The notes beneath the pieces were generated by a model. It ran no database searches. It had not been told where the DNA came from and was given only the letters and a program-made list of their open reading frames with translations. 64,000 nucleotides of DNA from an uncultured Pelagibacteraceae bacterium. Its GTDB lineage: Bacteria > Pseudomonadota > Alphaproteobacteria > Pelagibacterales > Pelagibacteraceae. Below are positions 56,569 to 59,192 of this stretch, piece after piece. The stretch lies in the NCBI GenBank assembly GCA_902578525.1, contig CACHDJ010000001.1, forward strand, positions 1-64,000. Reading direction: 5' to 3'. Each line of letters opens with the position of its first letter. Within the stretch, counting starts at the first letter, position 1. A program made the position numbers and the translations under genes.

Positions 56569-57015
56569 TTATTTAATTTCAATAAGTTTTTTCTTTTTTT
56601 GCTCTGGAACAATTCTCTCACAAGATATTGTTAAAAGACCATCTTTTAGTTCTGCACCATCTACTTTTACATCGTCAGCGATAGTAAATGATCTTGCAAA
56701 TTGTCTTTGAGAAATACCTTTATGTATAATTTCTCCATCAGCATTTTTATCTTCAGATTTATTAACTTGTTTAGTTCTTACAGTTAATAAATTATCTTCA
56801 AACTCAACTTCAACATCTTTTTTATTGAAACCAGCTAAAGCAACTTCTATTGCATAGTTATCTTTACCTACTTTTCTGATGTTGTAAGGTGGGTAGTTTG
56901 ATTGCATTGTCAAAGCACCATTCCCAAGCATATTTTCAAATTGATCAAACATATCGTCAAAACCAATTGAAAAAGGTCTTAGTGAGTTAAATATAGATAT
57001 ATCCTTACTTGTCAT
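56569..57015 (-). CDS. Hsp20/alpha-crystallin small heat shock protein
   Basis: YPPYNIRKVGKDNYAIEVALAGFNKKDVEVEFEDNLLTV. Confidence 0.96.
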   Translation of the reverse strand: MTSKDISIFNSLRPFSIGFDDMFDQFENMLGNGALTMQSNYPPYNIRKVGKDNYAIEVALAGFNKKDVEVEFEDNLLTVRTKQVNKSEDKNADGEIIHKGISQRQFARSFTIADDVKVDGAELKDGLLTISCERIVPEQKKKKLIEIK

Positions 57016-57071
57016 AATATCCTCCTTTTTTAAGCAAGTTTATTTTTTATAAGCCCCATTAGGCGGCTTAT
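57016..57071 (-). promoter_or_regulatory. candidate ROSE-like RNA thermometer in the Hsp20 5' UTR
   Basis: Minus strand: ATAAGCC-G-CC-TAAT-GG-GGCTTAT hairpin, then CTTGCT-TAAAAA-AGGAGG in which the Shine-Dalgarno pairs with a UYGCU-type strand, 5 nt before the ATG. Confidence 0.65.
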
Positions 57072-57077
57072 GATCCT

Positions 57078-57105
57078 TATTTAGTAACTAATTGTTATAT
57101 TTCAA
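57078..57105 (-). promoter_or_regulatory. putative promoter of the Hsp20 gene
   Basis: Minus strand CTTGAAA/TTGAAA (57105-57100), 16 nt spacer, TAAATA (57083-57078). Confidence 0.45.
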
Positions 57106-57115
57106 GATTAGCAAA

Positions 57116-59192
57116 TTAAATTTTTTTTGAAATTTTTAAAGCAAAAGCATAGTCAAGAGCTATTTCTTCAATCGCACCATCTCTTCCAGATTTACCACCA
57201 TGACCAGCATTCATTTCTGTCTTTAATAGCAATAAATTATTGTCTGTTTTAAAGTCTCTTAGTTTAGCTGTGAATTTAGCTGGTTCATCAAATAAAACCC
57301 GATTATCGCTTAAACTTGTTGTAATTAACATATTCGGATAATCCATTTTTTTAATGTTATTATAAGGAGCGTATGAAAATATGTATTCAAAATGGTCTTT
57401 ATTGTCTTTTGCATTTCCAAATTCATCAAATTCTCCAACAGTTAATGGCAAAGAATGATCTAGATTAGTTGTTAAAGAGTCTACAAATGGTACTGCCATT
57501 ATAATTCCTAAAAATAATTCTGGAGCTTGATTTACAACTGCTCCCATTAATAAGCCACCTGCTGATCCACCCATACCTATTATCTTACCTTTAGATGTAT
57601 ATTTGTGATCAATCAAATATTTTGCTGCGTGAATATAATCTTCAAAAGTATTTTTTTTTATTTGTAAGTTTTCCTTCCTTCCACCACTTCATTCCTTTTT
57701 CCATTCCTCCTCTAATATGTGCAGTTGCCCAAATTATATCTCTATCTAATAAACTTATTTTTGTTGATGAAAAGCTAGGACTTATAGAATTTCCATAAGA
57801 CCCATATCCATACAATAATAAATTTGCAGTTCCATCAACTTTAGTTTTTTTATGTCTTGTTATGGTTAAAGGAACCATTCTTCCATCATGAGATTTAAAC
57901 TCTACTCTTTCTACCAAATAATTATTTGAATCATGTCCAGAAGGTATTACTTGTTCTTTTACTAATATTTTGGATTTGTTTAAAAGATTATACAGGTAGA
58001 CCCTCGAAGGTGTTTTTGGAGATGAATATCCTAGGTAAACTTCATCTGTATTTCTATCTTTTTGTCTAAGAGAAATGGTTGGAACATAAATTTTTTCATC
58101 TGAAAAAATCAATTCTTCCTCCAATCCTGTAGAGATATTCTTTATAAAAAGCTTGTCTAATGCATTAGAAGTCTCTGAGCGTATTATCCAGTTTTTTAAA
58201 AATACACAGCCTCCAATTAAAACTTCTTCTTTCGCGGCAATAAAAATTTTCCAATTTTGTTTTTCTAAGCTATCACAAATCTCAATTTTGAAGTCTTCAG
58301 CGTCTTTATTTGTATGATTATAAAATTTGTCATCCCATGAATTTACAGAGTATAAAATTCCTTTTTCTCTTTTTTTTATTAATTTAGGTTCTGGTTTTTT
58401 TTCACTAACCTTAAAATAATATTGTTCAGAGGTATTGTGGTCAGAGGTTGTTATAAAATAGTACTGCTCATCTGAGCTTAAACTAATGCCAACAGTAAAA
58501 GCCTCACTTTTTTCTTCAAAAATTAGCTCGTCTTGATCATTAAAGTTTCCAATCTCATGTCTATAAATTTTTCTTGCTCGATGATTTTTGTCTAGTTTTG
58601 AATAAAAGATATATTTATCATCTAAACTAAAAACGATACTTCCAGATGTATCTTTAATTTCTCTTGTTATAATTTTATCAGTATCAATTTCCCTAATGAA
58701 TATTGTATAATACTCAGATCCTTTGGTATCCAAAGAATAAGCAAGATTTTTATCATTATGGCTAACCTCGAGATCACCTACACCAAAATATTCTACACCC
58801 AGTTTTTTTTTCTCTTTATCTCCATTCCAAATTTCCTCAATTTTATTTGTATTTATCTTTTTTCTTAATTTTATTGAATAATTTCCTTCAACTGTTGTTT
58901 TAGTCCAATATTCATATGTGTGATCTTTATAAGGAAGAGACTCATCATCTAATTTAATTCTACCTTTAATTTCATCAAACAATTTTTTTTGTAAATCTTT
59001 AGTATCTTTTAAATGATATTCTGTGAAATTATTTTCATTAATCAAATATTCTTTAACTTCAGGGTCTAATTTATCTTTATCTTTTAAAACTTCTAAAATA
59101 TTTTTTTGGTGTATCCAGCTATAATTGTCTTCCCAGGTGATATTGTGACAAGATTTTATTTCTGGTTTTTTTCTAAGTTGTGGTACTTTCAT
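57116..59192 (-). pseudogene. ptrB: oligopeptidase B (prolyl oligopeptidase family) split into two ORFs by a one-base frame offset at an A9 tract (57651-57659)
   Basis: 57642-59192 encodes the beta-propeller and start of the hydrolase domain; 57116-57616 encodes GMGGSAGG...; skipping one A in the tract gives continuous NKKNTFEDYIHAAKYLIDHKYTSKGKIIGMGGSAGG. Confidence 0.88.

Follow-up and report, generated by a model that had tools for sequence, protein, structure and literature searches.

Thermometers of the ROSE-like class are defined by a U(U/C)GCU motif that pairs imperfectly with the Shine-Dalgarno (SD) sequence in the 3' hairpin of the leader and so blocks it (PMC3669281). The ibpA leader of Pseudomonas has two hairpins in about 62 nt and is a tested thermometer transcribed by sigma-32; in the tested two-hairpin elements of Pseudomonas, melting opens the second hairpin and leaves the first intact (PMC3669281). 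In the meningococcal fHbp thermosensor the anti-RBS lies within the ORF (PMC4999090), and IbpA represses itself through its own 5' UTR in an Arg93-dependent manner, for which conservation in alphaproteobacterial IbpAs has been suggested.

Here we analyse the leader of the hsp20 gene in the window, by which we mean the whole 64,000-nt stretch of Pelagibacteraceae DNA under study. A sequence-only reading of this DNA had proposed a minimised ROSE thermometer upstream of the gene. We consider it highly probable (about 0.88) that the leader is a short ROSE-type RNA thermometer, transcribed by RpoH, in which the SD is masked until warming. The thermometer interpretation is supported by a match to the Rfam family ROSE_3, an invariant UYGCU motif and covariation in the first hairpin, and the temperature response is argued by analogy. 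The features discussed below, all on the minus strand, are as follows.

56569-57015, minus: hsp20, the regulated gene, encoding an IbpA-type small heat-shock protein of 148 aa (Pfam PF00011, E 1.1e-17)
57016-57071, minus: putative 5' UTR of about 56 nt, a probable two-hairpin ROSE-type RNA thermometer (ROSE_3 match, fold, covariation)
57049-57071, minus: hairpin 1, ATAAGCCGCCTAATGGGGCTTAT, with a bulged G at 57064 (covariation; the bulged G is also in the ROSE_3 consensus)
57021-57038, minus: hairpin 2, CUUGCUU / AAAA loop / AAGGAGG (leader fold; UYGCU in 154/154 leaders)
57100-57106, minus: -35 element CTTGAAA, part of a promoter of the RpoH (sigma-32) type (TTGAA in 141/143 distinct relatives, at a fixed distance from CCATAT)
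57079-57084, minus: -10 element CTAAAT, for which the consensus of the relatives is CCATAT, with a 15-nt spacer (alignment of relatives)
57004-57012, minus: codons 2-4, ACA AGT AAG, candidate alternative partner of the anti-SD strand (codon invariance; alternative fold)

The gene, its leader and the predicted fold

The Hsp20 protein also matches the IbpA model NF008013 (E 5e-30, under the equivalog cut-off), and it is the only Hsp20 gene found in the source genome, which is 82% complete. The leader region lies between the hsp20 start at 57015 and the stop of the upstream prolyl-oligopeptidase frame at 57116. This S9 gene (57116-59192, minus strand), directly upstream of hsp20, is read in two frames with a break at a nine-A run near 57650. 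Since it is undivided and in one frame in relatives, the split reflects either a frameshift that arose recently or a sequencing error in the homopolymer.

The leader sequence quoted in the sequence-only reading agrees base for base with the minus strand, and the two hairpins drawn there are both present when the 59-nt leader up to the AUG is folded alone. This minimum-energy structure has -14.7 kcal/mol and a z score of -2.73, and 4 of 200 shuffles folded equally well. Hairpin 1 has nine base pairs, broken by the bulged G. In hairpin 2, CTTGCTT (57038-57032) faces AAGGAGG (57027-57021), so placing the UUGCU motif (57037-57033) opposite the SD AGGAGG (57026-57021), with the start codon ATG at 57015-57013. 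The pairs run C-G, U·G, U-A, G·G, C-G, U-A and U-A, as had been drawn apart from one extra U-A pair. G57035 lies opposite G57024 in this fold, and from that position the two may form a syn-anti G·G pair.

The SD was predicted to be unpaired with a probability of 0.17 at 5 C and 0.23 at 45 C in the leader alone (ViennaRNA), which is little melting, from a type of model that captures the non-canonical pairs of ROSE elements poorly. Among the predicted folds of many relatives that have the CCUUGCUAACAA form, the SD hairpin does not dominate.

Promoter

A promoter had been placed at this site as TTGAAA-16-TAAATA. The site stands, while the elements are better read as RpoH-type CTTGAAA-N15-CCATAT. 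When upstream regions were aligned on TTGAA, 141 of 143 relatives showed a (T)CTTGAAA-N15-CCATAT pattern, with the spacing of exactly 15 nt in 132 of the 141 and a perfect CCATAT in 94; the CTAAAT of the window is a degenerate copy of the latter box. Hairpin 1 begins 6-7 nt past the -10 box, and the promoter spacing would put the start of transcription at about 57071. This layout fits a transcript started by RpoH at hairpin 1, and an rpoH gene is present in the genome (362 bits, cut-off 323).

Conservation and covariation in Pelagibacterales

For comparison about 190 Hsp20 loci were gathered, and Hsp20 leaders were aligned across the order, as the sequence-only reading had recommended. The UYGCU motif proved invariant opposite the SD and hairpin 1 strongly compensatory. 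U(U/C)GCU occurs 2-9 nt before the SD (AGGAG) in 154 of 154 distinct Hsp20 leaders, 20 of them from a second SAR11 family, f2. It was found near the SD in none of the 17 other SD-bearing ORFs within the window and in 2.5% of shuffled leaders.

Hairpin 1 is a real conserved RNA structure. In a sequence-only alignment of 44 diverse leaders from the family of the window (f1), compensatory double changes are seen at 7 of its 9 pairs. The cells of the hairpin are paired in 95.7% of cases, compared with 43-47% after a slide of one column, and the covariation score is 0.505 against at most 0.132 in the slid controls. RNAalifold recovers the same hairpin independently. When leaders of f2 were added the count was still 7 of 9 covarying pairs, in this case from a model-fitted alignment (A3) that leans to its own structure. 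The core of hairpin 2 shows no covariation, because the SD is fixed and both strands are nearly invariant. The order-wide MAFFT alignment shifts CUUGCUU against CCUUGCU by one base and was not used for the hairpin 2 counts.

The Hsp20 leaders at loci L112-L141 of family f2 are longer, carry UCGCU and are predicted to fold into three hairpins, the last of which is AAUCGCUUAAGGAGGAUU. The SAR11 order would then have both a two-hairpin (f1) and a predicted three-hairpin (f2) form of ROSE.

Relation to the ROSE families of Rfam

Among 4227 Rfam families searched with Infernal over 401 nt, ROSE_3 (RF02523) was the only credible match (23.2 bits, E 0.011). The alignment runs from 57072 to 57010 over the full length of the model, positions 1-69, with the AUG in register. 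The leaders of other Pelagibacterales behave alike, 11 of 20 having ROSE_3 as their sole match (35.1 bits and E 5.7e-5 at best). The Infernal check suggested by the sequence-only reading has thus singled out one family, with a score below its gathering cut-off: that threshold is 43 bits, which neither the window nor its relatives reach, and a search of the entire window at gathering thresholds returned no Rfam match. Searching 61 genomes with ROSE_3 also gave nothing over the cut-off; most of these matches were noise, since the model performs weakly on SAR11.

With a score under 43 bits, the element falls outside RF02523 as curated. It does belong to the ROSE-like class by the motif definition, with U(U/C)GCU opposite the SD, imperfect pairing with G opposite G, a stable 5' hairpin and a place in the 5' UTR of a small heat-shock gene. 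The description as a minimised ROSE is right in part: a leader of three hairpins is predicted in the other SAR11 family, f2. Compactness is not special to streamlined genomes, because the Pseudomonas ROSE (PMC3669281) and the ROSE_3 model itself also have two.

Matches outside the order and rpoH leaders

A covariance model was built from 20 f1 leaders, comprising only the leader RNA plus three codons, and 387 genomes of the class Alphaproteobacteria were searched with it. Outside Pelagibacterales it gave 14 matches at E <= 1e-3, of which 11 lie before Hsp20 in register, 2 before rpoH and 1 elsewhere. Because the model knew only the leader RNA plus three codons, its landing on heat-shock genes is independent support. 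Taken together, the 25 non-SAR11 matches that were fetched comprise 13 at Hsp20, 3 at rpoH, 1 at dnaK and 8 at other genes, and the weaker ones are largely chance. The downstream genes were confirmed by Pfam and NCBIfam where scanned, and L225 and L227 were called Hsp20 from close likeness.

A second R1 match in the source genome itself (C1:86493-86546, 18 bits, E 0.18) was taken as chance. The match at L234, AGGCGGTCGCCTAATGGGGCCGCCTTTTTTTT, resembles an intrinsic terminator; hairpins of this kind can give false positives for hairpin 1. At L240 a weak match of 23.5 bits, AAUUUGCCUAUGGAAGGAG, lies directly upstream of the dnaK of another alphaproteobacterium and may be due to chance.

In alphaproteobacterial families other than those of SAR11, namely f90 (L222/L283, L281, L238/L280) and f86 (L250-L279; 37 genomes searched), the rpoH leaders are ROSE-like. 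They have an upstream hairpin, which to the eye seems to covary, followed by AUAUUGCUU...AAAGGAUAU just before the start, with U(U/C)GCU in most. ROSE_3 scores 33.9 bits (E 0.0011) on the L283 leader, and the SAR11 model picks up several f86 leaders at E of about 1e-5. The rpoH genes of SAR11 were examined as well and are without a ROSE-like leader. Our literature search did not find a paper on ROSE-like rpoH leaders.

Frozen codons at the start of hsp20

The stretch AAGUAAG (57010-57004) in the coding sequence is complementary to the anti-SD strand CUUGCUU. All 119 of the distinct orthologues of 148 aa have the same codons at positions 2, 3 and 4, and these are the only invariant codons among 106 positions with a conserved amino acid. 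On the gene tree they have no synonymous changes, compared with 8-21 for other Thr, 9-16 for other Ser and 4-10 for other Lys codons, and 7 at codon 5. At the start of the neighbouring permease gene, used as a control, codons 2-3 vary and the AAA codons 9 and 10 are invariant in 59 genes, and for this reason an unchanging codon says little by itself when it is a preferred one. The freeze in hsp20 is notable because rare codons are frozen, AGT accounting for 6% of the Ser codons in the orthologues and AAG for 21% of the Lys codons. It reflects a constraint that is unexplained by ROSE alone.

Folding with the coding sequence changes the picture of the SD pairing, which holds for the leader alone: in a 71-nt piece that includes coding sequence, the minimum at 37 C is the CUUGCUU:AAGUAAG helix with codons 2-4. 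In the ensemble of the leader plus 30 nt, the SD hairpin gives way to the coding-region hairpin in the range from 25 to 37 C. For the window RNA the former is predicted up to 25 C and the latter from 30 C upwards, and the predicted unpaired probability of the SD rises from 0.30 to 0.66. If 60 nt of coding sequence are included, the predicted shift falls between 35 and 40 C.

Proposed mechanism and alternative explanations

The thermometer reading is carried by the anatomy of the leader, its conservation and covariation, the layout of motif and SD, the link to Hsp20 inside and outside SAR11 and the conserved promoter. By analogy with the tested elements, transcription of hsp20 by RpoH holoenzyme would begin at the base of hairpin 1, which would be stable, stay unmelted and aid the folding of the 3' hairpin. 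In the cold, CUUGCUU would pair imperfectly with AAGGAGG, mask the SD and keep ribosomes off, with little Hsp20 made. Upon warming, the weak, A/U-rich helix with its G·G pair would open while hairpin 1 remains, and Hsp20 would be translated.

Several other explanations could be considered for the same leader. A 7-nt complement is short and the genome is AT-rich, and thus the pairing might be put down to chance; the motif kept in 154/154 leaders, the compensatory changes in hairpin 1 and the matches outside the order at Hsp20 and rpoH refute this, and we give it practically no weight. It is also very improbable that the leader is structured without sensing temperature, with hairpin 1 acting as a 5'-end stabiliser against RNase and the UUGCU/SD pairing lowering translation at all temperatures. 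The barely shifting SD exposure predicted for the leader alone is what such a leader would show, but the leader agrees with tested ROSE elements (PMC3669281) in its plan of two hairpins, in motif and spacing, in the gene and in the RpoH promoter, and ROSE_3 is the sole Rfam family matched. Another proposal, which we judge possible even if the odds are against it, is that free Hsp20 docks on its own leader and represses translation until aggregates titrate the protein away, and that aggregation is sensed instead of or besides temperature. The window protein reads GISQRQFARS where E. coli IbpA presumably has GIAERNFERK; R93 and R97 look kept and K98 does not. The precedent of E. coli IbpA, with its suggested conservation in alphaproteobacterial IbpAs (PMC10474464), favours the proposal. 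Such binding would supplement the thermometer rather than replace it, and by analogy Hsp20 may repress itself at the same leader in addition to the thermal control.

The frozen codons raise a further, tentative reading of a thermometer or switch extended into the coding region, in which the anti-SD strand has two partners, the SD and codons 2-4. At low temperature the anti-SD strand would pair with the SD, and the competing codon 2-4 helix would enclose both SD and AUG. That helix might serve as a second lock, or on warming it might capture the anti-SD strand and free the SD. In favour of this are the invariance of ACA AGT AAG despite the minority codons, the absence of synonymous changes, the end of the freeze at codon 5, outside the 7-bp complement in window-type leaders, and the temperature-dependent move in silico from the SD hairpin to the coding-region hairpin. 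The evidence is nevertheless one of conservation and not of covariation, the switch is predicted for some relatives and not for others, and genera g3 and g7 as well as family f2 lack the complement. The AGT in use pairs less well than AGC would, the observed encoding ranking only about 12th of 96 synonymous ones, and the codon constraint could have other causes such as start-site decoding, an sRNA or protein binding. We hold the switch to be doubtful because its conservation comes without covariation and the pairing does not extend to the more distant g3, g7 and f2. That sensing itself extends into the coding sequence, with the anti-SD strand changing between the SD and a decoy of frozen codons by refolding rather than simple melting, we consider unlikely.

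Novelty and significance

The kind of thermometer and its compact two-hairpin form are already known. SAR11 bacteria, which possess few transcriptional regulators, rank with the most abundant cells on Earth. In the literature searched we found no report of ROSE in SAR11; a prediction survey of ROSE elements, reportedly from 2005, falls outside that search and priority is uncertain. The order-wide presence of ROSE in SAR11 seems to be unreported, and the text of a 2009 survey of structured RNAs in 'Ca. P. ubique' contains neither "heat shock" nor "hsp20" (PMC2704228).

An order-wide RNA thermometer under an apparent RpoH promoter would give a concrete and testable route for the response of SAR11 to ocean warming. 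The class is under-annotated in AT-rich Alphaproteobacteria, because the Rfam models miss the SAR11 element at curated cut-offs. The frozen codons 2-4, together with the ROSE-like rpoH leaders found elsewhere, suggest ROSE control beyond the leaders of small heat-shock genes, and the coding-region freeze and the rpoH leaders are the parts worth following.

Comparison with known systems

In the fHbp thermosensor bases of the ORF join the structure, as the frozen codons 2-4 may do in SAR11. The pairing logic differs, since the SAR11 ORF would compete for the anti-SD strand, and we know of no UYGCU motif in the fHbp element. In the classical ROSE elements, ROSE1 of Bradyrhizobium hspA and that of E. 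coli ibpA, the hairpin nearest the 3' end likewise pairs U(U/C)GCU with the SD and contains non-canonical pairs. They have three to four hairpins, compared with two in SAR11 f1 and a predicted three in f2.

With ROSE_3 the element shares the two hairpins, the bulged G before CC in hairpin 1, ACU(U/C)GCU opposite AGGAG, an AUG a few nt downstream and an alignment over the full model length of 1-69. It differs in its score (23.2 against 43 bits), its AT-rich stems and, by alignment, a shorter spacer between SD and AUG. The Pseudomonas ibpA leader belongs to Gammaproteobacteria, is proven by experiment and has G-C pairs on either side of its SD core; the SD stem of SAR11 is weaker and A/U-rich. 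Both have a leader of about 60 nt with two hairpins, the second of which sets U(U/C)GCU against the SD, a sigma-32 promoter (of apparent RpoH type in SAR11) and a small heat-shock gene downstream.
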